Source of the DNA: Alteromonas sp. CI.11.F.A3
GTDB lineage: Bacteria > Pseudomonadota > Gammaproteobacteria > Enterobacterales > Alteromonadaceae
NCBI RefSeq assembly: GCF_032925565.1
Contig: NZ_CP136708.1
Span: 1,426,001 to 1,490,000 of the forward strand
DNA length: 64,000 nt
Direction: 5' to 3'
This document shows positions 2,272 through 20,177 of this stretch, piece after piece. The notes under the pieces are model-generated. The model was not told where the DNA came from, did not search any database, and was given only the letters and a program-made list of their open reading frames with translations. A program made the position numbers and the translations under genes. How positions within the stretch are numbered: position 1 is the first letter of the stretch; the number at the start of each line of letters is the position of its first letter.

Positions 2272-2661
2272 GTGGTACAAAACATACATCACATTAACTT
2301 TCTGGTAAGAGAGTTAGATAAAGCTGTAGCGGCATTCGCCGAACTCACCAATACCCATCCTATATTTGAGCCACTCTCTAGCCGTGGGGCTAATTCGGCG
2401 CGTTTCCAATTGGGCGACACGTGGCTTGTATTTGTCAGCCCAACAGATGAAAACGGCATTATCGCGTCGATTTTAGAAGAAAAAGGAGAGGGGGTTTTTC
2501 TCATTTCATTTGGCAGTGACGATCTTTCAAAAACACTCGCTGGATTAACGGGAAACCCTCGCATGGGTGAAATGCGTAAAGGGCTGGCCAATTGGTATGT
2601 GCAAGACATTTCATTAGATTATGATTTCGGTTCAATACTGCAGCTTTGTGAAGCGCTTTAA
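2272..2661 (+). CDS. VOC-fold (glyoxalase/epimerase-like) protein
   Basis: A 129-residue protein starting with GTG, nine bases after a TAGGAG ribosome-binding site. The N-terminal HHINFLVREL stretch and the GEGVFLISF segment around residue 72-80 resemble methylmalonyl-CoA epimerase and related vicinal-oxygen-chelate proteins, in which GEGVHHIAF carries a metal-binding histidine. Here that histidine is replaced (Phe-Leu). The first-strand His7 and a C-terminal Glu127 are still present. The length equals a single VOC unit. The altered metal site makes an epimerase assignment unsafe; it could be a binding protein or an enzyme of altered chemistry. It stands just upstream of the sigma-54 operon on the same strand, but the 240-base gap with its own control sites suggests separate transcription. 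Confidence 0.8.
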   Translation: MVQNIHHINFLVRELDKAVAAFAELTNTHPIFEPLSSRGANSARFQLGDTWLVFVSPTDENGIIASILEEKGEGVFLISFGSDDLSKTLAGLTGNPRMGEMRKGLANWYVQDISLDYDFGSILQLCEAL

Positions 2662-2690: not shown

Positions 2691-2726
2691 ATTTCAAATT
2701 GAAATTTATTTATTTCATGTTGAAAT
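2691..2726 (+). promoter_or_regulatory. Paired palindromes, likely activator binding sites
   Basis: Two 15-bp palindromes, ATTTCAAATTGAAAT (2691-2705) and ATTTCATGTTGAAAT (2712-2726), lie with centres 21 bp apart, two helical turns. They sit about 100-130 bp upstream of the -24/-12 promoter at 2824, the normal place for enhancer sites of a sigma-54 activator. Binding by the regulator encoded at 2905 is inferred, not shown. Confidence 0.65.
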
Positions 2727-2823
2727 ATTAATGCTGGTTATTTTCTCATCGATATGACTACACTGGGCGCTTGATTATTGTACAGCCCCCGTGAATCCTA
2801 CCACACACTGTTTTTTTATTAAG

Positions 2824-2841
2824 TTGGCACAACTGGTGCAA
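2824..2841 (+). promoter_or_regulatory. Sigma-54 (-24/-12) promoter
   Basis: The sequence TTGGCACAACTGGTGCAA matches the sigma-54 consensus YTGGCAC-N5-TTGCW, with the GG (2826-2827) and GC (2838-2839) dinucleotides separated by exactly ten bases. Transcription would start near 2851, about 50 bases before the regulator start codon. A TATAAT at 2855-2860 has no matching -35 box and is probably incidental. Confidence 0.75.
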
Positions 2842-2904
2842 TACCCAGTGTAACTATAATAAAAATTCACGTTACTTCATGGGGCAACCTATTGGAGAAA
2901 TGTG

Positions 2905-4785
2905 ATGGAAAACAACAACGTGAAATCGGTAAGATTGGTTCAGCCTCAACTTCGTATCCTTATCGTTGGTTATAACGAATTTAGCCAGCTGGTGGGGAGC
3001 GTGCTACCTGAATACGTCGGTGAAGCCCAATTTAAGATTGTAGATTCCATCGTTGGAAGTACGAAAGAAATTCAACAGCATATTTCAGAATTTGACCCTG
3101 ATGTAATAGTCAGCGCAGGTTCAAATGCGCGATATCTACAATCTGCGTTGTCTATTCCAGTAGTCTCGATGCAAACAACAGAATGGGACGTATTCGAAGC
3201 GGTTGAAAAAGCCTCTAAGGTCTCAAAGTCAATTCACATCATTTCTTTTGCAGAAGCATCGTGCGCAGCAAAGCTTGCTGATTCCCACCTCAATATCAAT
3301 ATTGTAGAGTCGATTTACTTAACGGCCGACCAAGCAAGAGAGCAGTTTCATATTGCGAGTCAATCTGAAGGCATCGCAGTAGTGGGAGCTAGCCTAGTAT
3401 GTGGTTTAGCGAATAGCAAAGGTATTCCCTCATTCTTAATTTATACAGAACGCTCGTGTAGAAAAACCCTTCAAAGCGCCATCGACGAAGCTAAGAGAGC
3501 CCGTTTGTTAGCCAAAGAACAAGCGTTGGTATCATGGTTACTCACTAAATCTCAAACCCCCATTATCATGGTCGATGAGAGCGATGATGCCTTAACCCTT
3601 AATAGCGCTGCCAAGCATCACTTGAATCTAAGTACAAATGCAGAAGTTGATTTAGATGCCCTTATTCATCCAAGTGGTGGAAAACGTGAAACTGATGGCG
3701 AATGTGAAATTAACGGTGAGGAGTGGTGGTTTCATCTAGACACGTTATCAGAAGGCAGTACGAGTAAATTCGTTTACCAACTTTATCGCAAAAAACTTAG
3801 AAAAACGCCATCCAAGCAAGCGGCATCCCCTCGCCACGATTTAGTCTACCAATCTAACGAGATTGAAGCGGTGTTACAGCAGGTCAAGGCGTTTTCAACA
3901 TCGCCAAGTAACGTATTGCTGTTTGGAGAGTCGGGCACGGGAAAAGAGTTAGTTGCCAGGCAAATACATCATCAAGGCCCCTATGCGGGTGGCAAGTTTG
4001 TCGCCCTTAATTGCAGTGCTATCCCATCTGAGTTGTTTGAAGGTGAACTGTTCGGACATCAGGATGGCGCGTATACAGGCTCAAAGCGAGGTGGTCGCAA
4101 AGGGTTAATAGAGGAAGCCGAGAACGGCGCACTATTTCTTGATGAAATTAGCGAGCTAGCGCTAGACCAACAAGCTAAATTGCTAAGGTTTTTACAAGAA
4201 AGAAGCTACCGTCCTTTGGGGGGGAACCAAGAGCGAGAAGTTGACCTAAAACTGATCGCCGCTTCAAACCGTTCGTTATCTGAAATGGTTAATGAAGGCG
4301 CGTTTCGTGAAGATCTCTACTACCGACTCAATGTATTCAATATCTCTATTCCTCCTTTGCGCGAGCGCCCCGACGATATTCTTCACATTGCGGCGCACAA
4401 GCTTGAAAAACTATTAAATCGTTATGGGGTTTTACACAGCCCATCAACCATTCTTGAACATCTCAATGACAGCTTCGCTGCGCACAACTGGCCTGGAAAT
4501 ATACGCGAGTTAGAAAACGTGTTAGAGCGCGTGGTGGCTTATCTTCATACCGTAAACGACCTTGGTCGATTGCAAACAGCATTATCTCAAATTGCGCCAG
4601 AGTTAAGTGGGGGGCGTCAGCCTGTATTGACAGACAAAGGAATAATAAAAATAAAAGAAAACGAACTCATTCTAGCCGCATTGGCGCGATGGAAGGGTGA
4701 TAAACGTAAAGCAGCTCAGGACTTAGGAATTAGCCAAACCACATTGTGGCGAAGGTTAAAAACAATAAATCACAACAATAATTAG
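2905..4785 (+). CDS. PrpR-type sigma-54-dependent transcriptional activator
   Basis: A 626-residue regulator. Residues about 15-190 resemble the PrpR N-terminal sensor domain, which in propionate catabolism responds to 2-methylcitrate. A linker follows. The AAA+ domain has Walker A GESGTGKE (341-348), a GAYTGS loop (388-393) in place of the usual GAFTGA sigma-54 contact, Walker B GALFLDEI (408-415), and the FREDLYYRLNVF and PPLRERPDD segments. A Fis-type helix-turn-helix (KAAQDLGISQTTLWRRL) ends the protein. ATG at 2905 is preferred over the GTG at 2902 because it lies seven bases after GGAG (2894-2897). The next gene starts 15 bases downstream, so the activator heads its own target operon and is probably self-activating. 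Its inducer is likely a small hydroxy-di- or tricarboxylate or its thioester precursor, by analogy only. Confidence 0.93.
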   Translation: MENNNVKSVRLVQPQLRILIVGYNEFSQLVGSVLPEYVGEAQFKIVDSIVGSTKEIQQHISEFDPDVIVSAGSNARYLQSALSIPVVSMQTTEWDVFEAVEKASKVSKSIHIISFAEASCAAKLADSHLNINIVESIYLTADQAREQFHIASQSEGIAVVGASLVCGLANSKGIPSFLIYTERSCRKTLQSAIDEAKRARLLAKEQALVSWLLTKSQTPIIMVDESDDALTLNSAAKHHLNLSTNAEVDLDALIHPSGGKRETDGECEINGEEWWFHLDTLSEGSTSKFVYQLYRKKLRKTPSKQAASPRHDLVYQSNEIEAVLQQVKAFSTSPSNVLLFGESGTGKELVARQIHHQGPYAGGKFVALNCSAIPSELFEGELFGHQDGAYTGSKRGGRKGLIEEAENGALFLDEISELALDQQAKLLRFLQERSYRPLGGNQEREVDLKLIAASNRSLSEMVNEGAFREDLYYRLNVFNISIPPLRERPDDILHIAAHKLEKLLNRYGVLHSPSTILEHLNDSFAAHNWPGNIRELENVLERVVAYLHTVNDLGRLQTALSQIAPELSGGRQPVLTDKGIIKIKENELILAALARWKGDKRKAAQDLGISQTTLWRRLKTINHNNN

Positions 4786-4800
4786 TGTTCGGAGATAGTC

Positions 4801-7377
4801 ATGCAAACCACCGGAAAAACATATTTAGCATTGCAAGTGTCGCTCGCGTTAACCATAGGAAGTTCAGCCATTCCTGCTTTTGCACAAGAAGAAAAGCAAG
4901 CAACGTCTGAGCTCGTTGAAATTATCAGTATTTCACGAAAGCGCCCTGAAAGTATTCAGGAAGTGCCGATTGCGGTAACGGCGTTGTCAGCAAGGGAATT
5001 AGAGGCTGCGGGGGTAGAGCGTCCTTCCGATTTTATTAGCCTGATTCCAAACGTAAGTATTGTTGATGCAGCCAACGTAGGTGATACGCAGGTAAATATC
5101 CGGGGGATTATTTCTACACGCGATGCAGAGTCTACGTTTGCGTATGTAGTGGATGGGGTGTTGCAGACTAACCCGAATAGTTTTAACGAAGGGCTAACCG
5201 ATATAGCCCAAATAGAAGTTTTAAAAGGGCCTCAGGGGGCGCTATATGGCAGAAACGCGGTAGCCGGTGCCATTCTGATAACAACGGAAAAGCCCTCAGA
5301 CGTGATGGAGGCCAGAATTGAAGGTGGCGTTGGTAATAACAATTCGCAGCGCTATTCAGGAATGCTTACCGGGCCGCTTGCTGACAACGTGTTTGGGCGC
5401 ATCGTTGTAGCGCATTCAACCACTGATGGTTTTTATGAAAATGTGTATCTGGGACGTGACGACGCGGTAGATTACTTAGAAGATACATCGGTAAAAGGGC
5501 GTCTTATTTGGGAAGCGACTGATGACCTTACTTACGATTTTCGCGGTTCGTACAGCGAGGCAAAAGGCGGTGCAATAAACTTCAACGCTGTGTTCGCGCT
5601 TCCTAGTTTTGTAGAAGATTTTGGGCAAGATGCATTTTTCAAAGATGTAAATGATCATGAGTTTATTTTTGCTTTTAATGTACCTGGTGAAAATGAGCAA
5701 AAAACCACAGAGTTCTCAGTAAAAGCTGACTGGCAAGGCGATGGTTTCGACGTAACCTCTGTGCTTGCATACAATAATTTAGAAGAATATCTGTTATCAG
5801 ATGGTACAAGCGCTTCATTTTATGGCTATGAAATTACAGAGCAATGTCAAACCGATCGTGCCACATTAAATAACCTTCCTGTCGATTTTGGTGGAGCAGG
5901 AAGAAGCGACTTATTTGGCGATTTCCTATCTCCATTTGTAGTCCTTCCGCCAGGACAGGATTTTCAAGGCGTATATGGACCCTACACGCCATCTACGTGT
6001 GATGGTTATCAATATCAAGAACGAAGCCAACAAGATTACAGCGGAGAAATTAGATTTACATCGAACGACACAGATTCGCCCCTGCAATGGATAGCGGGCG
6101 TCTATTTCGCCAATATTGATAGAGATGTTGTCGTAGCTTACGGTGCTGATTTAGGCCAAGGTTTCTTGCGTCAAGCATACGTTCCGGCCGACGGGCCAAA
6201 CCCTACAGACTTACTGTTTGATGATACGTTTTCAACCACGGTGTTATCTACGTTCGGCCAAATTGAGTACGACGTTAACGACAAATGGGAAGTGTCTTTC
6301 GCACTCAGGTATGACAACGAGTCGCGAGAAGTGGCAAATAATGTACCCAATGTATCTGCCTCTGGTTTTAATGTGAATACCATTGTCGACGGTGTAGTAG
6401 GGCCTATCAACCCTGCATTTACGGCTAATCCTGATGGTATTCCCGATCGCGAGCAAAGCTTTAGTCAGTGGCAGCCAAAGCTAACCGTTAGTTACGAAGC
6501 AAGCGATGCCCTAAACCTTTATGCCAGTTATGGAGTGGGTTTTAGAAGCGGTGGATTTAATTCTATCGGCACTGAAGCCACGTTAGATTTTTGGTTCAAT
6601 GCAAGTGGAACCGGTACACCTGGTGATGCGGTTGATGCTCAACTTATCGTACCTGATAACTATGATAAGGAAATTACCACAAGTATTGAATTCGGTGGCA
6701 AGGGAACGTTTTTAGACAACCGGTTAAAAGTGAACAGCGCGGTGTTTCACACCAAAGTTGAAGATAATCAGTTCTTTGAGTTCTTTGCTGGCCCGTTTGG
6801 ATTATTAAGGGCGGTTACCACCATTGATGAGCTAGAAATTCAGGGCTTCGAAATGGACGCAAACTACCGGGTTAACGACAACCTTAGTGTCTTCGCAGGA
6901 TTGGGGCTTATTGATAGTGAAATCATTGAGAACAGAAATAGACCGCTCTCGGTAGGTAATGAAGCACCACAAACACCAAAATCTTCTTACACCCTAGGTA
7001 TTTCTTACGATCACGAGATTACCAGCGACTTACAACTTACCACCCGAATTGATTATCAATATGTGGGAGAAACCCATTTCCATACGCTGCAAGGTGAAGA
7101 AACGCCTACTATCTGGGATTTCTTCGGCACGTTGGGTGGCGGTGTTCCTCCCGGCCCTCACTCTCAAAACTTCAGTAACGCTCAGCGTGATGCTTATAGC
7201 ACCGTTAACGCTCGCATTTCCATAGAAGGTGAAATGTGGACGGTCGCATTGTGGGGCAAAAACTTAACTGATGAGGCTTATTTGCAAGAGGTGATCCCTG
7301 CGCCAGAATTCGGCGGCTCGTTTGTTCACCCCTCGGCGCTACGTTCCTACGGTTTAGAACTTAGCATGAGTTTCTAA
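4801..7377 (+). CDS. TonB-dependent receptor of the catabolic operon
   Basis: An 858-residue outer-membrane receptor with a signal peptide cut near PAFAQ, a TonB-box-like ELVEIISISRKR segment, and a plug carrying VNIRGI, VLKGPQGALYGRNAVAGAI and a short loop before the barrel. The barrel ends in a terminal Phe (LSMSF), the usual outer-membrane insertion signal. The gene starts 15 bases after the regulator stop, with GGAGA just before the ATG. It is the only transport gene in the operon, so it probably brings in the operon's substrate. That would imply a substrate too large, too scarce or too hydrophobic for porins. No inner-membrane carrier is encoded in the block. The plug style is that of the large orphan receptor group of Alteromonadales; the ligand is unknown. 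Confidence 0.93.
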   Translation: MQTTGKTYLALQVSLALTIGSSAIPAFAQEEKQATSELVEIISISRKRPESIQEVPIAVTALSARELEAAGVERPSDFISLIPNVSIVDAANVGDTQVNIRGIISTRDAESTFAYVVDGVLQTNPNSFNEGLTDIAQIEVLKGPQGALYGRNAVAGAILITTEKPSDVMEARIEGGVGNNNSQRYSGMLTGPLADNVFGRIVVAHSTTDGFYENVYLGRDDAVDYLEDTSVKGRLIWEATDDLTYDFRGSYSEAKGGAINFNAVFALPSFVEDFGQDAFFKDVNDHEFIFAFNVPGENEQKTTEFSVKADWQGDGFDVTSVLAYNNLEEYLLSDGTSASFYGYEITEQCQTDRATLNNLPVDFGGAGRSDLFGDFLSPFVVLPPGQDFQGVYGPYTPSTCDGYQYQERSQQDYSGEIRFTSNDTDSPLQWIAGVYFANIDRDVVVAYGADLGQGFLRQAYVPADGPNPTDLLFDDTFSTTVLSTFGQIEYDVNDKWEVSFALRYDNESREVANNVPNVSASGFNVNTIVDGVVGPINPAFTANPDGIPDREQSFSQWQPKLTVSYEASDALNLYASYGVGFRSGGFNSIGTEATLDFWFNASGTGTPGDAVDAQLIVPDNYDKEITTSIEFGGKGTFLDNRLKVNSAVFHTKVEDNQFFEFFAGPFGLLRAVTTIDELEIQGFEMDANYRVNDNLSVFAGLGLIDSEIIENRNRPLSVGNEAPQTPKSSYTLGISYDHEITSDLQLTTRIDYQYVGETHFHTLQGEETPTIWDFFGTLGGGVPPGPHSQNFSNAQRDAYSTVNARISIEGEMWTVALWGKNLTDEAYLQEVIPAPEFGGSFVHPSALRSYGLELSMSF

Positions 7378-7418
7378 TCCCTACGCTTTGAAGATTGAAT
7401 TGTAATCAGGAAGAATTT

Positions 7419-8618
7419 ATGAATAAACCATTGTCAGGCATTACTGTCATTGACCTTACGCATATGCTGTCAGGGCCATACTGCGGAATGATACTCGCCG
7501 ATTTAGGGGCAGAGACGATTAAAGTGGAGCCATTGCAAGGGGAAGGCACTCGAAAGCTTCTCGCAACCGACCCCGATAATTCGTTGGACGGTATGGGCGC
7601 CTACTTCATTACACTGAACCGAAACAAAAAAAGTGTCTGCATCGATTTAAAATCTGAAGAAGGCTTAAACGTATTCTATGAATTGGTAAAAAAAGCCGAT
7701 GTGGTGGTCAACAACTTTGGTGCAGGTGTACCAACGCGTTTAAAAATCGACTATGAACAGTTAAGTAAAATAAACCCCGAGATAATCACTTGTTCAATTA
7801 CGGGTTTTGGTAGCAACGGCCCCAAATTCAAACGTCCAGCGTTTGATCAAGTGGCACAAGCGACTGGTGGCGGTATGTCTATCACGGGTACCGATCCAAA
7901 TCACCCTGTTCGAGCCGGTATTCCAATCGGTGATTTGGGCGGCGGTATGTTTGCCGTCATGGGGATTCAAGCCGCGCTTTTGGAACGGGCAAAAAGTGGT
8001 AAAGGACAAGACGTTGATATCTCAATGTTAGATTGTCAGATATCACTGCTTAACTACATGGCTACAATGTACTTTCTGTCAGAGAAAGACCCATTCCCCA
8101 TTGGCAATTCGCACTTTGTTCACGTGCCCTACAACACTTTTAAAACAGCGGATGGTTTTATTGTGATTGCAGTTATCACCGATAACTTTTGGCAGAACTT
8201 AAAAACGGTGGTGAAGATAGATGCATTGGACTTACCCGAATTCGATACCCAGCCAGGACGGTGGGCAAAGAAAGACTTTATCGACGAAACCCTTAACCAA
8301 ACACTGCAAACACAAACCTCAAGCTATTGGATTGAAAAGCTAGAAGCGGCGCGTATTCCTTGTGCGCCTGTTAATACGTTCTCTCAAGCCCTCAGTGATG
8401 AACAAGTACAACACCGTAATATGGTGGTTGAGCTTACCTCGGGTGATGGCAACAAAACCAAAGGGCCGGGAAATCCTATTAAGTTTTCACGTACCACAGA
8501 CGAAGTATTCTCGCCTGCACCCAAGGTAGGCGAACACACTAAGGATGTGTTGAAAGATTTAGTAGGCATGAGTGACAGTGAGTTAGCCCTTTTATTTGAG
8601 AAAAAGGTAGTTCGCTGA
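7419..8618 (+). CDS. Family III (CaiB/BaiF) CoA-transferase
   Basis: A 399-residue class III CoA-transferase that would move CoA from a donor such as succinyl-CoA to a carboxylic acid. The opening LSGITVIDLTHMLSGPYCGMILADLGAETIKVE is the family hallmark, as is LNRNKKSVCIDLKSEEG. The catalytic aspartate is Asp172 in GIPIGDLGGGMFA. ATG 7419 follows AGGAAG (7408-7413); an upstream in-frame TTG at 7395 lacks a site. The stop overlaps the lyase start as TGATG. Paired with an HMG-CoA-lyase-family enzyme, it matches the succinyl-CoA:D-citramalate CoA-transferase / R-citramalyl-CoA lyase pair known in Chloroflexus. A citramalate-like substrate is therefore my preferred guess. Other acids cannot be excluded from sequence. 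Confidence 0.92.
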   Translation: MNKPLSGITVIDLTHMLSGPYCGMILADLGAETIKVEPLQGEGTRKLLATDPDNSLDGMGAYFITLNRNKKSVCIDLKSEEGLNVFYELVKKADVVVNNFGAGVPTRLKIDYEQLSKINPEIITCSITGFGSNGPKFKRPAFDQVAQATGGGMSITGTDPNHPVRAGIPIGDLGGGMFAVMGIQAALLERAKSGKGQDVDISMLDCQISLLNYMATMYFLSEKDPFPIGNSHFVHVPYNTFKTADGFIVIAVITDNFWQNLKTVVKIDALDLPEFDTQPGRWAKKDFIDETLNQTLQTQTSSYWIEKLEAARIPCAPVNTFSQALSDEQVQHRNMVVELTSGDGNKTKGPGNPIKFSRTTDEVFSPAPKVGEHTKDVLKDLVGMSDSELALLFEKKVVR

Positions 8619-9538
8619 TGAAAACGAAAGGAAAAATCATCATCAACGATGTTGGCCCCAGAGATGGCCTACAGAATCAGAAAAAGCACCTGAGTGTGGA
8701 TGAGCGACTTGCATTAATAAATGCATTAGTTGCAGCTGGATTACCCGCCATTGAAGTAGGGGCTTTTGTATCGCCTAAAGCGGTTCCCGCTATGGCGGGG
8801 ACAGATGAGGTGATTAATCAACTCGCGGCCAAAGATAAGGTGGCGTATTCAGTGCTTATACCCAACGAAAGAGGGTTTAGCACTGGGGTTGAATTAAATG
8901 TGCCGCTGATGTCACTGGTAGTTGCTGCCAGTACAACGATGAACGAAAAAAATATTCGAATGACGACTACCCAAGCGCTGTCTATGTCATCTGACGTGCT
9001 TGCTCTAGCCACACAATTAAATCGTAAAGTGCAAGCTTATGTTGCAACAGCATGGGAATGCCCTTTTGAAGGGCACATCAGCGTGGATGAAGTGATTAAA
9101 GTATCAGCCGCATTATTAGATGCTGGGGCTGCTCACATTGTGGTGGCCGATACGATTGGTGCGGCATCTCCAGATCAGGTACATGCGCTGATGAGCAAAA
9201 TGGTATCGGAGTTTGGCGCCAACAAATTGTCGTGCCATTTTCATGATACACGCGCAATGGGCGTTGCAAACGTTTACGCCGCGATTGAAGCGGGTATTCG
9301 ACAATTTGATGCATCAATAGCGGGCTTGGGTGGCTGCCCATTTGCACCGGGCGCCACCGGAAATGTAGCGACAGAAGACGTGGTGCTGCTAGTAGAGCAA
9401 ATGGGTTATAGCACAGGCATAGATATGGGCCTGTTACTTGCAGCATCGGACAAAGCCAAGGCATTAACAGGCACAGCACGTGGTGGACATGCTAAAACCT
9501 GGTTAGAACAACAAGAAAATAAAAGGGGAAGCAAATGA
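8618..9538 (+). CDS. HMG-CoA lyase family enzyme, possible citramalyl-CoA lyase
   Basis: A 306-residue TIM-barrel lyase of the DRE-TIM family. It keeps the DVGPRDGLQN motif (11-20), metal-binding histidines in CHFHDTRAMG (His207, His209), and the GLGGCPFAPGATGN loop with the catalytic cysteine (Cys240). Family members cleave 3-hydroxy-3-methylglutaryl-CoA or the related R-citramalyl-CoA, both tertiary-alcohol acyl-CoAs. No leucine-degradation genes (acyl-CoA dehydrogenase, methylcrotonyl-CoA carboxylase, enoyl-CoA hydratase) are nearby. With a CoA-transferase upstream and LeuCD-like genes downstream, cleavage of a citramalyl-CoA-type compound to pyruvate plus an acyl-CoA fits better than HMG-CoA cleavage. 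Its TGA overlaps the ATG of hyuA (ATGA), showing translational coupling. Confidence 0.92.
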   Translation: MKTKGKIIINDVGPRDGLQNQKKHLSVDERLALINALVAAGLPAIEVGAFVSPKAVPAMAGTDEVINQLAAKDKVAYSVLIPNERGFSTGVELNVPLMSLVVAASTTMNEKNIRMTTTQALSMSSDVLALATQLNRKVQAYVATAWECPFEGHISVDEVIKVSAALLDAGAAHIVVADTIGAASPDQVHALMSKMVSEFGANKLSCHFHDTRAMGVANVYAAIEAGIRQFDASIAGLGGCPFAPGATGNVATEDVVLLVEQMGYSTGIDMGLLLAASDKAKALTGTARGGHAKTWLEQQENKRGSK

Positions 9539-11616
9539 GTTATCGATTAGGGGTTGATGTAGGCGGAACCTTTACCGACCTACTATTAATTAACGAAATA
9601 TCTGGGGAAACCTTTACTGCAAAAGTGCCTTCTACACCGCACGATTCTTCCGTTGGGGTGCTTAACGGCATAGACCGTATTTGTGAAGAATCAGGTGTTA
9701 ATGTTACTGATATCGCGCGTGTTATGCACGGTACAACTGTTGCAACCAATGCGGTATTAACTGGCAAAGGGGCAAGTGTCGCACTGGTTACCACACAAGG
9801 CTATAAGCACGTGCTGCAAGTGGCACGTTCATTTTGTCCGGGGGGGCTGGGAGGCTGGGTAAGCTACATGAAGAAGCCTTTGCTTGCACCGTTAGAACTC
9901 ACCATTGAAGCAAGTGAAAGAGTGGGCGCTGATGGCAGTATTGTAAAAGCCCTAGACGAAGAGAAGCTCACGCAAAGCTTACAGGCATTAAAAGATAAAG
10001 GTGGATTTACTGCACTCACTATCTCTTTTATAAACGCCTATGTGAACGGAGAGAACGAGCGCCAAGCTCAAGCGGTTGCACAGCGTGTTTTCCCTGATAT
10101 GCCAATCTCTATTTCTTCTGATGTTGTTCCTGAATTGCAAGAATACGAGCGAACTGAAACCACAGTGGTAAACAGTTACGTTCGCCCTGAAGTAGCCAAA
10201 TATGTCGATAATTTATATGGCGCGCTAACCGATCGTATGGGCAGTGATATTCATCTGTCTATCTTGCGCTCAGATGGCGGGCTGGCGTCTGCACGTTCAG
10301 CCGCAGAAAGCCCAGTTAACTTGCTAATGTCTGGTCCTGCTGGCGGTGTAGCGGGGGCTATCCATTTTTGTAAACAAGGTGGGTTTAACGACATACTCAC
10401 TTTTGATATGGGCGGTACGTCTACTGATGTTGCACTAATACAAAATGCGACAGCACGGGTAAGACGAGAAACTCGTGTTGGAGATGTTACCGTACGTGCA
10501 CCATCGGTAGACGTAAGAACCGTTGGCGCTGGTGGTGGCTCTATTGCTTTTGTGCCTGAACTGACTAAAGCACTGCGCGTAGGTCCAGAGTCAGCTGGCG
10601 CTAAACCGGGCCCAGCGGCTTATATGAAAGGCGGTGTAGAACCAACGGTATGCGACGCCAATGTGGTACTCGGTTATCTTCCTTCAGATGTGCAGCTTGG
10701 TGGCAAAATGGCTATCAATCGAGACGCTGCAGTAGCGGCGGTAAAAAAAGTGGCAGACGCCATGGATATTTCGGTTGAAGAAGCGGCTGAAGGTATCATT
10801 AAGATTGCTAACGAAGCTATGTTCGGCGCCCTTCGGTTAGTGTCGGTAGAGCAAGGATTCGATCCAAGAGAGTTTGCCCTTGTAGGGTTTGGCGGAGCTG
10901 GTCCATTACATGCCAATGCACTGGGTATGCTAACCCAAGCGTGGCCTGCCATTATTCCTCCTGGTCCGGGCGTATTATGTGCTTATGGTGACGCCACCAC
11001 ACAGGTACGTGACGAGGCCTCCCAAACACTGGTTTCGCTAATCGACAACCTCAGCGACGATGCATTTAAGCATGTACTCACTGAATTAGCAGAAAAAGCA
11101 TCTTCTACCCTGCTCGCCGATGGAATTTCAATGGACGAGCAAACTATTACTTATGAAGCGGATGTTCGCTACACCGGGCAAGCCTTTCAACTCTGCGTTC
11201 CTTTTTCTAAGCAAGATATTGAAGACAATGGACTTTCTTTACTTAAAAAGCACTTTGATGCTGAACATACGCAGCTATTCACCTTTGAGTTAGAAGAGGG
11301 CCATGAGGTTGTGATGGTTCGCGCAGTTGCCACAGCAAAAAGCAAAGCGCTCCCGGCTCCTCCGCCTGTCAACACCAGTTATACCTTGGAAGATTGCATG
11401 TTAACCGATAGCCAAATTTATTATGAAGGTAGCTATCACGATGCAATCATTTATGAGCGTAGAAAACTTCACGAAGCGTTATCGGTCAAGGGCCCCGCTG
11501 TAATTTGTGAAATGGACTCGACTACCGTGGTTCTCCCTGGTTACGTTGCAACCGTTGATGCGGTGGGCAACCTATTACTTAACCCGTTAAGCAGCCCTGA
11601 ATCGACTGGCAAATAA
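9535..11616 (+). CDS. hyuA: Hydantoinase/oxoprolinase family subunit A
   Basis: A 693-residue ATP-binding subunit of the hydantoinase A / 5-oxoprolinase family. The ASKHA-type phosphate loop is DVGGTFTD (8-15). HGTTVATNAVL (65-75), SGPAGG (266-271) and DMGGTSTD (291-298) follow. Characterised relatives use ATP to open five-membered lactams and imides (5-oxoproline, N-methylhydantoin) or larger lactams (caprolactam). Acetone carboxylase is a more distant relative. A hyuB gene follows nine bases after the stop, as expected for the two-subunit form. The presence of a downstream amidase suggests a ring carrying an amide nitrogen. The exact substrate cannot be read from the protein. Confidence 0.93.
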   Translation: MSYRLGVDVGGTFTDLLLINEISGETFTAKVPSTPHDSSVGVLNGIDRICEESGVNVTDIARVMHGTTVATNAVLTGKGASVALVTTQGYKHVLQVARSFCPGGLGGWVSYMKKPLLAPLELTIEASERVGADGSIVKALDEEKLTQSLQALKDKGGFTALTISFINAYVNGENERQAQAVAQRVFPDMPISISSDVVPELQEYERTETTVVNSYVRPEVAKYVDNLYGALTDRMGSDIHLSILRSDGGLASARSAAESPVNLLMSGPAGGVAGAIHFCKQGGFNDILTFDMGGTSTDVALIQNATARVRRETRVGDVTVRAPSVDVRTVGAGGGSIAFVPELTKALRVGPESAGAKPGPAAYMKGGVEPTVCDANVVLGYLPSDVQLGGKMAINRDAAVAAVKKVADAMDISVEEAAEGIIKIANEAMFGALRLVSVEQGFDPREFALVGFGGAGPLHANALGMLTQAWPAIIPPGPGVLCAYGDATTQVRDEASQTLVSLIDNLSDDAFKHVLTELAEKASSTLLADGISMDEQTITYEADVRYTGQAFQLCVPFSKQDIEDNGLSLLKKHFDAEHTQLFTFELEEGHEVVMVRAVATAKSKALPAPPPVNTSYTLEDCMLTDSQIYYEGSYHDAIIYERRKLHEALSVKGPAVICEMDSTTVVLPGYVATVDAVGNLLLNPLSSPESTGK

Positions 11617-11625
11617 GGAGGCGTT

Positions 11626-13491
11626 ATGAATAATAAAATTAAACAAACGAACACAGCTGAGTTGACCAGAATTGACGTTGATACGGTTACCGTTGATATC
11701 ATTGAAAATGCATTGCGTAATGCCAGAGAGGAAATGGATGCGGTGTTATTTCGTACCGCAATGAGCCCAGGGATCCGCGAGCAGGGTGATTGCTTTCCCA
11801 TGATTGCTAATAAAGACGGCAAAATGGTAGTAGGGCAATTTGGTTCTTTTATCCATGGCTTCCTAAGTGCATTTGAGGGCGAATTGGAAGAAGGGGATAT
11901 CATCCTTACCAACGACCCTTACATGACAAATGCAGCCGTTTCCCATTTACCCGACTGGATTATTCTTGTTCCTATCTTTAAAGAGGGGCGACACATTGCG
12001 TGGACTGCAATGTTTGGTCATATGTCAGATAACGGCGGAATGGTGCCAGGTTCTATACCCATTAAAGCGGAAACCATATTTCAAGAAGGTATTCGAATTC
12101 CACCCACAAAACTTTATAAAAAGGGTGTGCTACAACGCGATATATTAGAGCTCATTTTACATAATGTGCGAACGCCACAGTGGAACCGATTTGACTTAAA
12201 CGCACTTGTGGCAGCGTGTAAAACGGCGGCAAAACGCTGCCAAGAAATAGCCGAGCGTTTTGGTGACGATATGTTTTACTCCACCATGGAAATTATGCTC
12301 GAGCGTAACCATGTTGCGATGGAAGCCATTATCAATATGTTGGTGCCAGAAGAGCCTCGCGTATTCGAAGATTATTTATGTGACGATGGTGTGGGCATGG
12401 GGCCATACAAAATACGCTGCAAGATGTGGCGTGAGAATGGCAAGGCAATTTTCGACTTTGAAGGCACCGACCCGCAAGCGAAAAGCTCAATAAATTTCTA
12501 CTTAAATGAAGACATGTTCAAGATGTTCTTCGGCTCCTTTACTATCAATTTGGTTGACCCTCAAATACTGTTCAATGATGGGTTTTATGACTTAGTTGAT
12601 GTGCGTATACCTCAAGGCAGCTTACTTAAACCAAACTTTCCAGCCGCTCTTTCGGGAAGAACGCACGCATTAGGCCGTATCTTTGACGTAATGGGAGGGC
12701 TATTAGGACAAGGTGCACCTGATGCCATGAATGCAGCCGGTTTCTCTGATTCTCCTCATCTGTTTTATTCTGGCTATGACGATAAAGGAGAGTGGTTCCA
12801 ACTCTTCCAGATTGGCTTTGGTGGGATCCCAGGCAGGCCTGTAGGTGATGGGCCAGACGGACACTCTCTGTGGCCGGGTTTTACTAACGTACCGAACGAA
12901 TTTATCGAAGCGTACTTTCCTCTACGTGTTGAAACTTACGAAACTATTCCAGATTCCGGTGGCCCTGGTTTTCACCGCGGCGGTAATGGCTTGTCGGTGG
13001 GGTATCGGTTCCTTTGTGATGGGGCCATCGCTATTCATGATGACAGATGGTTAACTTATCCTTGGGGCGTTAATGGAGGGTTGCCAGGTAAACGTTCAAC
13101 AAAACGCCTCATTCGAGAAGATGGCAGCACAGAAACTCTCCCAGCCAAATGCGAGGGCATTGTAGTAAAAGCGGGTGATGTATTGTATTTCGATACATGG
13201 GGCGGCGGCGGTTGGGGCGATCCATTTGACCGCGAACCTAATGCGGTAGCTGATGATGTCGCCAGAGGATTAGTATCTTTGGAAGGCGCGCGTCGATACG
13301 GTGTGGTGATTGAAAATGGGTCGGTAAACGACACCGAAACCCAGCGCTTGCGAGCGACATTGAAAGAAGAGAGAGGTGAAGTGTCGTTGTTTAATCGTGG
13401 CGGAACAATAGAAGAAATTAAAGCCAAAGCGAAAGAGGAAACGGGCTTAGCCGCACCAGTATCACCATCGTTCAACGTTGCGAGACAATAA
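11626..13491 (+). CDS. hyuB: Hydantoinase/oxoprolinase family subunit B
   Basis: A 621-residue partner of HyuA. The conserved NDPY motif (96-99) followed by SHLPD, then HMSDNGG (132-138) and PGS, is the HyuB signature. The C-terminal GGGGWGDPFDRE ... VARGLVSLEGARRYGVV block is also typical. This subunit carries the substrate-binding and presumed metal-binding half of ATP-dependent ring-opening amidohydrolases. A full AAGGAGG ribosome-binding site (11615-11621) overlaps the hyuA stop codon, five bases before ATG 11626. The length is at the long end for separate B subunits (roughly 500-620), with an N-terminal extension of about 15 residues. It is co-transcribed with the rest of the operon. Confidence 0.93.
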   Translation: MNNKIKQTNTAELTRIDVDTVTVDIIENALRNAREEMDAVLFRTAMSPGIREQGDCFPMIANKDGKMVVGQFGSFIHGFLSAFEGELEEGDIILTNDPYMTNAAVSHLPDWIILVPIFKEGRHIAWTAMFGHMSDNGGMVPGSIPIKAETIFQEGIRIPPTKLYKKGVLQRDILELILHNVRTPQWNRFDLNALVAACKTAAKRCQEIAERFGDDMFYSTMEIMLERNHVAMEAIINMLVPEEPRVFEDYLCDDGVGMGPYKIRCKMWRENGKAIFDFEGTDPQAKSSINFYLNEDMFKMFFGSFTINLVDPQILFNDGFYDLVDVRIPQGSLLKPNFPAALSGRTHALGRIFDVMGGLLGQGAPDAMNAAGFSDSPHLFYSGYDDKGEWFQLFQIGFGGIPGRPVGDGPDGHSLWPGFTNVPNEFIEAYFPLRVETYETIPDSGGPGFHRGGNGLSVGYRFLCDGAIAIHDDRWLTYPWGVNGGLPGKRSTKRLIREDGSTETLPAKCEGIVVKAGDVLYFDTWGGGGWGDPFDREPNAVADDVARGLVSLEGARRYGVVIENGSVNDTETQRLRATLKEERGEVSLFNRGGTIEEIKAKAKEETGLAAPVSPSFNVARQ

Positions 13492-13492
13492 T

Positions 13493-14122
13493 ATGCAGCT
13501 TAGTAGCAGCGATTTACTAACGCAAGGTGTCGCCTTTGGCGTGCGCCCTGCGTTAATTGTTGTCGATATGACAGTAGGCTTTGCGTCACCTGAGAGTCCT
13601 CTTGGCGGTGTATTTGATAGTGAAATTACCGCCGCTGAAGCACTAATTCAGCACTTTGATGGCGCAGGCTTACCTGTTTATTTCTCAACAGTTGTGTATG
13701 ACAACGACAGCCAGCAATCGGTGTTCAGACAGCATTTGCCTGACTTAGATATGCTTGCTCGGGGTAGCCGGTGGGTTGAGATAGACCCCCGCCTATCGTT
13801 TTCTAATAATGCCACTTTAATAGAGAAAACCGCCCCAAGTGCTTTTTTTGAAACCCAGCTAAACGAGAAGTTAAAAGCCGGCGGGGTGGACAGCGTAGTG
13901 GTGTGTGGCTTAACAACTAGCGGTTGCGTTCGCGCAACCGCAGTAGATGCATTGTCGTGTAATTTTCCTGTGTGGGTTGTTGAAGAGGCCTGCGGAGACA
14001 GAAATATTGACGCTCACAAAGCGAACTTGCACGACCTACACGCAAAGTATACTGAGGTTGTCAGCCTTGACACTGTGTCGTCATATTTTGCTAAGAAAAA
14101 AGCGGAGGACGACCATGCCTAA
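13493..14122 (+). CDS. Isochorismatase-fold amidase (N-carbamoylsarcosine/maleamate amidase type)
   Basis: A 209-residue cysteine hydrolase with the family triad Asp25 (VVDMTVGF), Lys112 ([11 protein letters not shown]) and Cys145 ([12 protein letters not shown]). The [13 protein letters not shown] segment and the SAFFET turn point to the amidase branch that includes N-carbamoylsarcosine amidase and maleamate amidohydrolase, not true isochorismatase. It would release ammonia from a linear amide formed when HyuAB opens a ring. ATG 13493 overlaps the last base region of hyuB and has no clear Shine-Dalgarno, so it is probably translated by coupling. The upstream TTG at 13478 is rejected. Its end overlaps the leuC-like start by eight bases. 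In creatinine breakdown HyuAB-type N-methylhydantoinase and this amidase family also act in sequence. Confidence 0.9.
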
Positions 14123-15524
14123 AACACTTTATGACAAGCTTTGGGACAGACATTTTGTTACTTCAGTTGATGGTGACGGGTTGCTTTACATTGATAGGCA
14201 CTTGATTCATGAAGTGACTTCACCTCAGGCATTTGATGGCTTAAAACAATTCAACAGAAAAGTACGACGACCTGACTTAACGATAGCAACAATGGATCAT
14301 AGCATTTCTACGCAGTCGACGAGTCTTGATGCATGTGGTCCAAAGAACGCGTTGCAGTTAAAGACATTAATTAAAAACTGCCAAGCTAATAATATCGTTT
14401 TATATCCAGTAGGAGACAGTCACCAAGGTATTGTGCATGTTATGGGGCCGGAAATGGGGCTTATCCATCCTGGTATGACCGTGGTGTGTGGCGACTCGCA
14501 CACAGCTACCCACGGCGCCTTGGGTACGCTAGCGTTTGGTATTGGCACATCTGATGTGGAGCATGTGTTAGCAACCCAAACTATTCGGCAAAGCAAAGCA
14601 AAGAATATGCGGGTGAATTTTAATGGCGAGCTACCCGAAGGTGTCTTCGCTAAAGATATGATTTTAGCCTTAATTCGAGAAATTGGACACGACGGTGCAA
14701 CCGGGTTTGTTGTGGAGTATAGCGGAGACGCGATATCGAGTTTGTCGATAGAAGGGCGAATGACAATCTGCAACATGAGTATCGAAGCCGGCGCGAAAGC
14801 AGGCATGATTGCACCGGATGATGTCATATTTCGCTACTTAGACGGAAAAGCATTTTCGCCTAAAGGAGAGAAGTTCGAGGCAATGAAAGTCGCTTGGTCG
14901 GCGCTTTATTCAGATGTTGATGCAGAATTTGATAAAACAGTCGACATTGATGTGTCTCGTTTATCCCCTCAGGTGACGTGGGGAACTAACCCAGGGCAAG
15001 TTATCGGCATCGATGAAGCCGTACCTCAATTGCCTGACAGTTATTCTGATGGCGACAGTAACGCTATGCAAAAGGCGCTGCAGTATATGGACATTAACGC
15101 TGGACAAAGCATAGACGATGTTGCTATTTCCCATGTGTTTATTGGTTCGTGTACAAACAGTCGAATAGAAGACTTAAGAGAAGCCGCTGCGGTGGTATCA
15201 AATGGGCGAGTGGCCGAACAAGTAAAAGCTATTGTGGTGCCAGGTTCTATGCGAGTAAAAAAACTGGCGGAAGAAGAAGGGCTAGACCGCGTGTTTATCA
15301 ATGCGGGGTTTGAATGGCGATTGCCCGGGTGTTCAATGTGTTTAGGGATGAACGATGACGTGCTTAAAGAAGGCGACCGCTGCGCGTCTACCAGCAATCG
15401 AAACTTTGAAGGCAGACAGGGGCGAGGCGCTAGAACACACTTAGTCAGTCCAGCCATGGCCGCTGGGGCGGCACTAAAAGGTAAACTCACCGATGTTAGA
15501 TTGCTATTAAGGAGGCAGCCATGA
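14115..15524 (+). CDS. leuC: LeuC-type hydro-lyase large subunit
   Basis: A 469-residue aconitase-superfamily protein. It has the same length as E. coli LeuC and cluster cysteines in the same places: Cys346 (FIGSCTNSR), Cys406 and Cys409 (LPGCSMCLG). [20 protein letters not shown] and [16 protein letters not shown] complete the family pattern. The [4Fe-4S] cluster would catalyse dehydration/hydration of a hydroxyacid. Close homologues act on isopropylmalate, citraconate/R-citramalate, maleate or dimethylmaleate. The protein is near to canonical LeuC, so true isopropylmalate isomerase activity is not excluded, but leuA and leuB are absent and the operon is catabolic. ATG 14115 follows GGAGG (14104-14108); an in-frame extension to 13947 lies inside the amidase gene and is not used. 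Confidence 0.93.
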
Positions 15525-16120
15525 AGCCATTAATAACGGTTGAATCTAAGGCAATACCTTTTGTAGAAAATAACGTGGATACTGATCAACTACTGCCAAA
15601 GCAATTTCTGACAGAAATAACGCGTCAAGGTTTCGGAAAGCATCTTCTCCATGATGTACGTTACCTCGACGCTAATGAAAGCGTTTTGAACCCAGATTGT
15701 GTGCTCAATGACCCTGTGTATGTTGGAGCGGAAATACTGCTTGCGGGCGAGAACTTCGGTTGTGGCTCTAGTCGAGAGCATGCGCCATGGGCCATTGCCG
15801 ACTTTGGATTTCGTGTAATTATAGCCAAAGGATTTGCCGATATTTTTTATGCTAATTGTCTTAATAATCAGATTCTACCAATTACATTACCCCACGATGT
15901 GGTTGACGATATTGCAATGCAATGTCGGCAGAATCCGAATCAACTGGTATGTGTTGATTTAAGTAATCAGCAGGTTCGTTTTAACAGTGATGTTTTCAAT
16001 TTTGCTATTCCGCTTCACCATAAACAAAATTTGATAACTGGAGTAGATAAAATAGGAAGAACATTACTGGAAGAAAACGCTATCGCTGGGTACGAAGCAA
16101 AAACATTGTATTATATGTAA
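15521..16120 (+). CDS. leuD: LeuD-type hydro-lyase small subunit
   Basis: A 199-residue small subunit that completes the LeuCD-type enzyme. It has [12 protein letters not shown] near the N-terminus and [14 protein letters not shown] at about residues 79-92, the swivelling-domain signature. The length is close to the 201 residues of E. coli LeuD. The ATG overlaps the leuC stop (ATGA), with AAGGAGG a few bases upstream. Substrate choice in this family depends partly on the small-subunit loop before the FGCGSSRE motif; that loop (around residues 20-40) looks LeuD-like here. It is the last gene of the block, followed by a terminator at 16245. Confidence 0.92.
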
Positions 16121-16206
16121 ACGTTCTATTAAACGCCCAATAGAGAGCCTTGTTTGAAGGTGGATAGGCAATTGATTGGGCGCCAGCTAATCTGACAGTC
16201 TCAAGT

Positions 16207-16223
16207 GTACGTGAAGCGGATGT
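16207..16223 (+). repeat. Short dispersed repeat, copy 1
   Basis: GTACGTGAAGCGGATGT here recurs at 18019-18035 as GTACGTGAAGCGGACGT, one mismatch in 17 bases. Both copies lie in gene-free gaps of the accessory stretch between 16.1 and 20.5 kb. The rest of the gap 16121-16421 holds only the operon terminator and no gene. Confidence 0.6.
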
Positions 16224-16244
16224 TCACGATTTTTAATTTCTAAT

Positions 16245-16284
16245 CAAACCTAAGCCAGTCTGAGGTTTGCATTTTTTATTTTAA
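16245..16284 (+). terminator. Intrinsic terminator of the catabolic operon
   Basis: CAAACCT (16245-16251) pairs with AGGTTTG (16263-16269), with two further base pairs inside after a mismatch, and is followed by a T-rich tract CATTTTTTATTTT. It lies about 125 bases after the leuD-like stop codon and closes the 13-kb block. Confidence 0.7.
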
Positions 16285-16421
16285 AACGAAGTACAACAGC
16301 TAAGTAGATGTTTCCAGTCGCAAGTTTTCAGAAGAGAGTAGAGCAAATCGTTCTTCATCACAGAATGGTGTTACGCTAACGCGTAGATAAAAAATAAATA
16401 TGACAGTGGAGCGTCAACCAA

Positions 16422-17834
16422 GTGAATCAGAAATCAACATTAGTTTTTATCCTATTTTTTTCCTTTTGCTCTTTTGCTTTTGGTGACGAAAATGACCAAA
16501 ACGCAAAGAATACGACTCTTCCTGCAATCGCGAACGACATCGCAACGCAATTTCATGATATGGGGTGGTTTTCCGGAAGTGTACTGGTAATACAAGATGA
16601 TAAAGAAATATTTGTATCGTCTTATGGTTTTCAGAACATTAAAGAGCAAATAAAGAACACGGGGCAAACTCGGTTTAACCTTGGTTCGATCATGAAGGAC
16701 TTCACTAAAGTATTGGTATTACAACAAATTGAAAAAGGCAAGCTTAGGTTGAACAGTCAGCTGATTTCCTTTGATTTGGGTTTCAAACAGTCTTTTACTG
16801 AAGACATAACAATCGAACAACTACTAAATCACAGCGCTGGTTTTGACGATATCTTTGTCGCTGAATATCGGGAAAACCCTCTTGCATTTGATACTCTCGA
16901 TAAGAAACTGAGTATATTGATCGATCGCCCCCTCATATTCAAACCCGGTACTGACAATCAATATTCGAACTACGGATATATCGTATTGGGTAAGATTCTT
17001 GAAAAAGTTACGGGTGAGCCATTCGAAGAACTACTGAAAAATAAGATATTCTTACCGACGGAAATGACAGACACCACATTCGAGCCTTCTCATTCACATG
17101 ATCACCAGTCGGTAAAATATACTTATCAATACGACAGCACATTGAGGGAAGTGGGTGTTGTTGAGCATCCAAGTCCAGATGGCGGTATTGAGTCAACTGT
17201 AAGAGACGTACATCGATTTTATAAAGCGCTCTTTTACACCAATAAACTATTACAAAATTCAAACCCAATTAATCGCAAAGTATTTGCTATGGATAAGCCT
17301 CATTGGGGGGCATATGGTGGCGGACTTGGAGTCAGTGCCGCCGTGGAAATTGACCTAGCTAGTAACTATCAAATTGTGGTTCTTGCAAATAGTGACAACT
17401 TAGTCGCGGAACTCATATCTGGTCGAATACTCTCGTTTATCAAAAACGGGGAGTATGCGCCAGTTAGGCAGTTGGAAAAGAATTTTGCTTACGAATACTA
17501 TAAGACCAACGGGAAAAAGAAGTTTTCAAAGCAATTTAAACTGGCTTACAGCGATGAGGGATACGAGCGATTCATTGGCAGAACCATCAATGAACTTGGA
17601 ATGGAACTCCTTAGGGCAGAATCATTTACGGAGGCATTTGACATGTTTTATTATTTAGTTTCACTTTTTCCAGATGCACCTCAGGTATACGACAGTCTAG
17701 CCTTTGCCTATCTATCTAAAGGGGATGAGACGACTGCGAAAGATACTTTCAGTCAATCTTTAGCGATCAAAGCTGATTTTGAAAGCGATTACGTGAGTGA
17801 TAATTATGGTCATGATGACACTGTAGTTGACTGA
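16422..17834 (+). CDS. Exported beta-lactamase-fold serine hydrolase with C-terminal TPR-like region
   Basis: A 470-residue protein with a signal peptide (cut near AFG). The class C beta-lactamase/esterase fold shows Ser89-x-x-Lys92 (SIMK) as nucleophile motif, Tyr181-Ser-Asn183 as the second motif, and HWG as the third. FKPGTDNQYSNYGYIVLGKILEKVTGEPF is typical of the family of D-alanyl-D-alanine peptidases, esterases and class C enzymes. The last 60 residues read like a TPR unit (DAPQVYDSLAFAYLSKGDETTAKDTF). The GTG start lies ten bases after GGAG. A true antibiotic-hydrolysing role is unlikely given the fusion; peptidase or esterase activity in the periplasm is more plausible. The codons are more AT-rich than in the operon before it. 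Confidence 0.88.
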   Translation: MNQKSTLVFILFFSFCSFAFGDENDQNAKNTTLPAIANDIATQFHDMGWFSGSVLVIQDDKEIFVSSYGFQNIKEQIKNTGQTRFNLGSIMKDFTKVLVLQQIEKGKLRLNSQLISFDLGFKQSFTEDITIEQLLNHSAGFDDIFVAEYRENPLAFDTLDKKLSILIDRPLIFKPGTDNQYSNYGYIVLGKILEKVTGEPFEELLKNKIFLPTEMTDTTFEPSHSHDHQSVKYTYQYDSTLREVGVVEHPSPDGGIESTVRDVHRFYKALFYTNKLLQNSNPINRKVFAMDKPHWGAYGGGLGVSAAVEIDLASNYQIVVLANSDNLVAELISGRILSFIKNGEYAPVRQLEKNFAYEYYKTNGKKKFSKQFKLAYSDEGYERFIGRTINELGMELLRAESFTEAFDMFYYLVSLFPDAPQVYDSLAFAYLSKGDETTAKDTFSQSLAIKADFESDYVSDNYGHDDTVVD

Positions 17835-19768: not shown

Positions 19769-19784
19769 ATAAGAATTGAAAGTT

Positions 19785-20177
19785 ATGCAAATAGGCGAAC
19801 TGGCTAGAAAAACAAGCTGCACTGTTCAAACGATTCGACTCTATGAGCGAAGCGGATTGTTAAAACTGCCTTCGCGCAGTGCAGGAAACTATAGAGTTTA
19901 TGATAGCGAAGCGTTAGAAAGGCTGGTCTTTATTCGACAATGCCGCGCACTGGGAATATCAATTAAAGAGATTGCGACATTGTTACACCGGAAGGAGGCG
20001 CTCGACGAAAGCTGTAATGAGGTAAATCAGCTTATCGCAAAACATCTTTTAAAAGTTCAGGAAAAGATATGTGAACTGCAAGGACTGCAAATCACATTAG
20101 AGCAACTATCAAACGAATGCTCAGGTACGAGTACAATTCAAACTTGCGGTATTTTCAGTAAGCTCGAATCCACTTAA
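19785..20177 (+). CDS. MerR-family regulator, CadR/PbrR-like
   Basis: A 130-residue MerR regulator. The N-terminal winged helix reads MQIGELARKTSCTVQTIRLYERSGLL, followed by SRSAGNYRVYDSEALERLVFIRQCRALGIS. The cysteines are placed as in cadmium/lead-responsive members: Cys77 (SCNEVN), Cys112 (SNECS) and Cys121 near the C-terminus (TCGIF). ATG 19785 is preferred to TTG 19776, since family members begin at MKIGEL or MQIGEL. It is divergent from the DUF3703-like gene and probably binds the palindrome between them. The typical target, a P-type ATPase or CDF efflux pump, is not in the window. The inducer is likely a soft divalent metal, by family knowledge. Confidence 0.9.
   Translation: MQIGELARKTSCTVQTIRLYERSGLLKLPSRSAGNYRVYDSEALERLVFIRQCRALGISIKEIATLLHRKEALDESCNEVNQLIAKHLLKVQEKICELQGLQITLEQLSNECSGTSTIQTCGIFSKLEST

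Follow-up and report, generated by a model that had tools for sequence, protein, structure and literature searches.

A ten-gene block in Alteromonas sp. CI.11.F.A3, a candidate operon for catabolism of a five-membered cyclic imide

The window analysed is a stretch of 64,000 nucleotides from Alteromonas sp. CI.11.F.A3 (contig NZ_CP136708.1, positions 1,426,001 to 1,490,000, forward strand). Near its beginning lies a compact gene block that joins an ATP-dependent hydantoinase/oxoprolinase-type hydrolase (HyuAB), a cysteine hydrolase, a LeuCD-like hydratase, a CoA-transferase and a lyase of the hydroxymethylglutaryl-CoA (HMG-CoA) lyase type (HMGL). Nine genes, all on the + strand, occupy positions 2902–16120, neighbours overlapping by up to 14 bases or separated by at most 41 (open reading frame list, Pfam and NCBIfam scans); an earlier sequence-only reading of this DNA had described the same nine, tightly packed on a single strand, and is borne out in this. 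It missed a tenth member, the VOC gene at 2272–2661, which is conserved with the block (VOC label in 29 of the 80 loci surveyed below). The product it called an amidase is an isochorismatase-fold hydrolase. The features are as follows.

2272..2661, + strand: VOC protein of methylmalonyl-CoA-epimerase fold, probable accessory epimerase-like protein.
2824..2841, + strand: sigma-54 −24/−12 promoter-like site upstream of the regulator gene (13/14 specified positions).
2902..4785, + strand: PrpR-like sigma-54-dependent activator (PF06506, PF00158, PF02954; PrpR_N, Sigma54_activat, HTH_8); start codons GTG 2902, ATG 2905.
4801..7377, + strand: TonB-dependent outer-membrane receptor (PF07715, PF00593; in family scans far under the cut-offs of heme-receptor models).
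7395..8618, + strand: family III CoA-transferase (PF02515); TTG start, in-frame ATG 7419 a possible start.
8618..9538, + strand: HMGL-type lyase, pocket presumably altered (PF00682; NF004283, 324.1 bits against a cut-off of 246).
9535..11616, + strand: HyuA, ATP-binding subunit of a hydantoinase/oxoprolinase-type hydrolase (PF05378, PF01968, PF19278).
11626..13491, + strand: HyuB, metal-binding subunit (PF02538).
13478..14122, + strand: isochorismatase-type cysteine hydrolase, probable half-amide hydrolase (PF00857).
14115..15524, + strand: LeuC-like hydratase large subunit (TIGR00170); start ATG 14115.
15521..16120, + strand: LeuD-like hydratase small subunit (TIGR00171); loop PKQFL.
16242..16282, + strand: possible intrinsic terminator (hairpin and T-run), weak.

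Control by sigma-54, claimed earlier, holds at sequence level: the predicted −24/−12 site stands ahead of an activator with an AAA+ domain. The regulator shares the domain architecture of PrpR and scores 420.6 bits on TIGR02329, under the cut-off of 499.2. Among 26 loci with a regulator >40% identical to that of the window (not all independent), sigma-54 sites of at least 11/14, judged against mononucleotide shuffles, lie upstream in 16; the other 10 lack such a site, and in six of them the regulator gene is further down the block. The terminator said to close the operon is a weak candidate: 16236–16285 folds at −7.1 kcal/mol ahead of a T-run, and an equal or better fold was obtained in 28 of 200 shuffles. 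Scans of the window gave 21 sigma-70 sites (shuffle mean 34.2), 16 terminator candidates (shuffle mean 19.5), both counts below those of shuffles, and no Rfam matches.

The order VOC, regulator, TonB receptor, CoA-transferase, lyase, HyuA, HyuB, hydrolase, LeuC, LeuD is repeated in three other genomes of the genus (G001, G011:C6, G035), so that conservation of gene order among relatives, put forward earlier as a check, is found. The full set is present in 4/36 same-genus genomes searched and a close HyuB in 6/60 relatives, own genome included in both. When 148 genomes of the order were searched with HyuB (E up to 1e-150) and with the CoA-transferase (E up to 1e-120), both matched the same four, with some 3 kb between the two matches in every case; one extra HyuB match (G011:C16) is without a CoA-transferase partner. 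Some matches of the genome searches contain internal stops. The block is an accessory module, since the full set is patchy in the genus, and not a chance neighbourhood, since the ten-gene order recurs and HyuB and CoA-transferase occur in the same four genomes of the order.

A wider survey confirmed 227 loci from genome contigs; the best 80 of the 227 underlie all 80-locus counts. Locus labels are best BLAST matches over at least half of the query (tblastn in one comparison) and include matches of 28–45% identity, possibly of other subfamilies. Many of the loci are interrupted by contig ends, and two repeat contigs of the genome set (L023 that of G035, L043 that of G002) and are not independent. 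Labels were given to HyuA in 77 loci, HyuB in 77 (in three the gene is unlabelled, a longer antisense frame having been chosen), CoA-transferase in 64, HMGL in 60, TonB receptor in 56, hydrolase in 54, PrpR-like regulator in 25, and LeuC and LeuD in 12 each; the LeuC query began one codon (Thr) ahead of the ATG, which left its matches unaffected. The five core enzymes (CoA-transferase, HMGL-type lyase, HyuA, HyuB, hydrolase) occur together in 46/80 loci, and in 35/50 of those at least 19 kb long. Core plus LeuCD is found in 6/80 and all ten genes in 4/80, one of the four (L023) being G035 again. A second regulator cluster, c0, occurs in 22/80 loci, never together with the PrpR-like type; one member is annotated GntR in an Acidiphilium record.

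HyuA carries DVGGTFTD, DMGGT and GAKPGP at residues 8, 291 and 355, both phosphate motifs and the adenosine motif being intact. HyuB D55, H107, D110 and H132 align with the metal ligands of caprolactamase, the enzyme from which the ATP motifs and ligands for comparison were taken (PMC8453981). The marks of the superfamily (DxGGTxTD, DxGGT and GxxPGP in A, an Asp-His-Asp-His site in B) are thus all present. In the aligned hydrolases, D30 and K117 are kept in 61/61 copies and C150 in 60/61. LeuC (707.5 bits against 560.25) and LeuD (227.5 against 116.25) exceed the cut-offs of TIGR00170 and TIGR00171; a second LeuCD is encoded elsewhere in the genome. The LeuD loop PKQFL is that of the other LeuD copies of the genus; LeuD beside PuuE-like genes reads PSREM, a hint that the side chains handled may differ. 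Conversion of citramalate to citraconate by a 3-isopropylmalate dehydratase is described in PMC5882075.

The lyase retains the catalytic motifs GPRDGLQ, HFHDT and GGCPFA. Compared with the canonical copies of the genus (L123–L130; operon copies L119–L122, island copies L131–L133 and a further non-island copy, L134, left out), it belongs to a cluster (n = 68) with other residues at three columns, which we take to line the HMG-CoA lyase pocket; their roles and human numbering are likewise assumed. The Trp column is Trp in 8/8 canonical copies and Ala 52, Arg 6, Val 3, Leu 3, Lys 3, Ser 1 in the cluster. The Gly column is Gly in 8/8 canonical copies and Ala 64, Ser 4 in the cluster. Ser stands at the third in 7/8 canonical against 3/68 cluster copies. 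Trp and Gly are therefore changed in 68/68 cluster copies. Island copies L131–L133 have Ile at the Trp column. The second HMGL of the same genome (L128) has canonical residues, and the operon lyase is, as judged from these columns, distinct from it. A search with the lyase found 4235 proteins with E values up to 1e-60 in the 8000 scored, not all necessarily of the cluster type; of the 120 matches listed, those bearing a function name are annotated as hydroxymethylglutaryl-CoA lyase.

Probably, though by no means certainly, the block is an operon for the inducible breakdown of a cyclic imide with a five-membered ring, a 2-methyl-3-R-maleimide being the likeliest substrate; the reactions are assigned from protein families, motifs and gene context. 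Import of the compound, or of a larger parent, would fall to the TonB receptor. HyuAB would open the imide at the expense of ATP to a maleamate-type half-amide, which the cysteine hydrolase would convert to a substituted maleate and ammonia. LeuCD would hydrate the cis double bond, giving a 2-methyl-3-R-malate (a citramalate or methylisocitrate analogue). After transfer of CoA to this acid by the CoA-transferase, the HMGL-type lyase would cleave the ester to pyruvate and R-CH2-CO-CoA, the latter being acetyl-CoA for R = H, butyryl-CoA for ethyl and glutaryl-CoA for carboxyethyl. Epimerisation at the carbon adjoining the thioester may be the task of the VOC protein. The PrpR-like activator probably responds to one of the intermediates and acts on the sigma-54 promoter ahead of its own gene.

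An imide is preferred because it is the only one of the ring types considered whose opening would provide the hydrolase with an amide and also LeuCD with a dicarboxylate; a five-membered ring, because LeuCD chemistry requires a 1,2-dicarboxylate. A lyase in place of a dehydrogenase suggests a tertiary alcohol, which calls for an alkyl group, methyl being the simplest. A sensor of the PrpR type would be in keeping with this, since 2-methyl-3-R-malate resembles methylisocitrate. The sequence-only reading had proposed import, ATP-dependent ring opening, ammonia release, hydration, CoA transfer and C–C cleavage; as a set of inferred reactions this remains the best reading of the enzymes, but its hydration step depends on LeuCD, which lies outside the conserved core. 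It had left the substrate open among cyclic amides and imides; the imide part is favoured, and the inferred chemistry narrows it to a five-membered ring. Two candidates were rejected by reasoning: unsubstituted maleimide, whose malate is simply oxidisable and would leave CoA-transferase and lyase idle, and a citrazinate/cis-aconitamide route, the endpoint of which would be cis-aconitate.

Several observations weigh against this assignment. The weightiest are that LeuCD seldom accompanies the core and that HyuAB and the hydrolase have, as nearest solved relatives, enzymes with ureide-type names. LeuC lies within the block in only 12/80 loci and is hence not part of the conserved core. Another LeuCD is proposed to serve loci that lack their own, an explanation drawn from six chosen loci whose genomes hold LeuC elsewhere; in a seventh genome, G124, LeuC is 1.3 kb from HyuB. 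A small imide should need no TonB receptor. The VOC protein has the epimerase fold but falls under the cut-off of TIGR03081, and presumably is without most of the epimerase metal ligands. The lyase column taken to be Ser75 is mixed in the cluster (Ser 41, Ala 27 of 68), and a ninth non-island copy of the genus, L134, carries Ala at the Trp column, so that Trp is kept in 8/9. CoA-transferases of the distant loci are only about 30% identical to the window copy.

The names of the solved relatives bear on a cyclic ureide as substrate. HyuAB is nearest to N-methylhydantoinase and the hydrolase to N-carbamoylsarcosine amidohydrolase (26st), two steps of creatinine breakdown. HyuAB would then open a hydantoin-like compound to an N-carbamoyl compound, the hydrolase would decarbamoylate it, and CoA-transferase, lyase and LeuCD would act on a carbon chain freed otherwise. 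This is unlikely: the product would be an amino acid, unusable by the conserved CoA-transferase and lyase, and the Pfam scan found no amino-acid deaminating enzyme among the ten genes.

Cleavage of HMG-CoA itself is quite unlikely. A six-membered imide of the 3-methylglutaconimide type would be opened, deamidated, hydrated to 3-hydroxy-3-methylglutarate, activated with CoA and cleaved to acetyl-CoA and acetoacetate. Such a route would agree with the score of the lyase above the HMG-CoA lyase subfamily cut-off and with the nearest solved relative of the CoA-transferase, succinate-hydroxymethylglutarate CoA-transferase (9br6, tied with formyl-CoA transferase, 10uh). Yet the genome has a second, canonical HMGL, the operon lyases have lost residues kept in 8/9 non-island copies of the genus, and LeuCD would not be expected to act on a 1,3-dicarboxylate.

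Opening of a gamma-lactam (pyrrolinone) by HyuAB as in caprolactam breakdown, with the hydrolase removing a separate side-chain amide, is very unlikely; HyuAB does resemble caprolactamase, but two separate nitrogen groups and an amine-removal step would be required, and the Pfam scan found no gene for the latter among the ten. Coincidental neighbours of unrelated function (leucine synthesis, leucine breakdown, amide use), which the commonness of each family and the generic names in the source records might allow, are largely refuted and hardly credible given the conserved ten-gene order, the shared presence pattern in 148 genomes and clustering of the core in distant phyla too.

HyuAB and the hydrolase also stand with CoA-transferase and/or lyase in Bacillota, Actinomycetota and Haloarchaea. 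Geobacillus plasmid pGYMC5201 (L012) encodes a sigma-54 regulator, hydrolase, HyuAB, CoA-transferase, HMGL, LeuC and LeuD, 30–60% identical to the window proteins; because the set lies among several insertion sequences (IS982, IS701 and IS1634, interspersed in it), its activity in that strain is uncertain. A Rubrobacter plasmid carries GntR, CoA-transferase, HyuAB and hydrolase. Natronomonas PL131 has HyuAB, hydrolase and a PrpB/phosphoenolpyruvate-mutase-family lyase; in Haloterrigena, HyuAB and hydrolase lie opposite a CoA-transferase and an isopropylmalate/citramalate/homocitrate-synthase-family protein (in both haloarchaea these family scores are under equivalog cut-offs). Novosphingobium capsulatum has TonB receptor, GntR, HMGL, HyuAB, CoA-transferase and a product named N-carbamoylsarcosine amidohydrolase. 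A single plasmid of Acidiphilium JZ-6 bears two sets; in the second, LeuCD and two genes of the polysaccharide-deacetylase family stand in place of HyuAB.

In G002, G011:C16 and G016 the HyuAB–LeuCD group lies inside islands of tens of kb with a second LeuCD, HMGL, isochorismatase-like genes, PuuE-like polysaccharide deacetylases and a PrpB-like lyase; a family III CoA-transferase is present in two of the three (G011, G016). Two sphingomonad plasmids (L142, L143) carry much of the same gene list. Methyltransferase, MmgE/PrpD and FAD enzymes are also seen in these plasmids and in the islands of the three genomes (L135–L141 and L018), along with many further genes. Among solved relatives of the PrpB-like lyase are methylisocitrate lyases, 2,3-dimethylmalate lyase and petal death protein, the last of which cleaves 2-alkylmalates, an ethyl-methylmalate among them. 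The islands thus keep hydrolase and LeuCD and add PuuE-like proteins (allantoinase relatives) and PrpB/dimethylmalate-lyase relatives; half-amides, alkylmaleates and alkylmalates as intermediates would lead one to expect varied ring-opening and lyase families around constant hydrolase and LeuCD steps.

Methylvinylmaleimide, ethylmethylmaleimide and hematinic acid are terminal maleimides of tetrapyrrole breakdown and occur naturally. A wider proposal, which must be called doubtful, is a mobile, undescribed pathway in Pseudomonadota, Bacillota, Actinomycetota and Haloarchaea. Through it, 2-methyl-3-alkylmaleimides left by the breakdown of chlorophyll, heme and bilins would be mineralised, the imide being opened with ATP and cleavage following the pattern of citramalate or methylisocitrate. 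Two LeuCD types (loops PKQ(F/Y)L and PSREM) and two lyase types in the larger islands would then serve both maleimide classes of one tetrapyrrole. The tetrapyrrole link is speculative and draws on these natural maleimides and on the marine, photic habitats suggested for many loci.

Other surroundings are as follows. In SAR92/Porticoccaceae-type loci (L091, L092, L094, L098, L100) the block adjoins acyl-CoA dehydrogenase, carboxylase and enoyl-CoA hydratase genes that, judged by eye, resemble a leucine-degradation operon. In L083 and L101 an FAD-linked oxidase-like gene, an M24-peptidase/DddP-like gene (far under the cut-off of the DddP model) and others lie upstream of CoA-transferase–HyuAB, perhaps feeding other ring compounds into the module. 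In the window, where the following frames are named by eye, a second TonB-receptor-like frame (3–1970, − strand) diverges from the block and runs off the window start. Downstream, all on the + strand, follow a serine beta-lactamase/esterase-like frame (16422–17834, close to the block; a 99% identical copy is also downstream of the block in L022), a trypsin-like secreted protease (18147–18938) and a MerR-like regulator (19776–20177).

Breakdown of cyclic imides by an ATP-independent imidase and a half-amidase is known in Blastobacter and Pseudomonas. The block as proposed shares the sequence imide, half-amide, dicarboxylate and ammonia; it differs in the ATP-dependent HyuAB and in the hydration, CoA transfer and C–C cleavage that would follow. 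With the last steps of the 2-methylcitrate cycle (PrpR, aconitase-type dehydratase, PrpB) it has in common a PrpR-type activator, an aconitase-family hydratase and the proposed release of pyruvate from a 2-methylmalate-like acid, whereas CoA-transferase and HMGL-type lyase stand in for PrpB in the window; PrpB-like lyases occur in related loci. The itaconate/citramalyl-CoA pathway likewise has a CoA-transferase and a cleavage to pyruvate and acyl-CoA, but no CitE-type lyase or enoyl-CoA-type (mesaconyl/itaconyl-CoA) hydratase was found among the ten proteins by Pfam scan, and the CoA-transferase of the block is far below the cut-off of the mesaconate CoA-transferase model (289.4 against 700). 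HMG-CoA lyase of leucine breakdown agrees in fold and catalytic motifs; its columns are remodelled in the operon copy, and the genome has a separate canonical copy. Creatinine breakdown also pairs a HyuAB-type enzyme with an isochorismatase-type hydrolase, the nearest solved relatives, but without further carbon-chain enzymes and on a ureide instead of the proposed imide. Caprolactamase CapAB has two subunits with the same ATP motifs and metal ligands (PMC8453981); its substrate is a seven-membered lactam, and the window proteins score 509 (HyuA) and 184.1 bits (HyuB) against CapA and CapB equivalog cut-offs of 1000.

A literature search, with most subscription papers outside its coverage, found no description of this gene set, in agreement with the earlier claim that no described pathway uses it in full. 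The block is apparently an undescribed variant of cyclic-amide/imide catabolism. If this is true, many proteins of marine genomes and metagenomes named hydroxymethylglutaryl-CoA lyase, hydantoinase and 3-isopropylmalate dehydratase would belong to one nitrogen-releasing catabolic pathway, for which the altered lyase columns would serve as a marker for re-annotation. A single operon would then allow a direct test of what becomes, in nature, of the very stable maleimides in which pigment breakdown ends.

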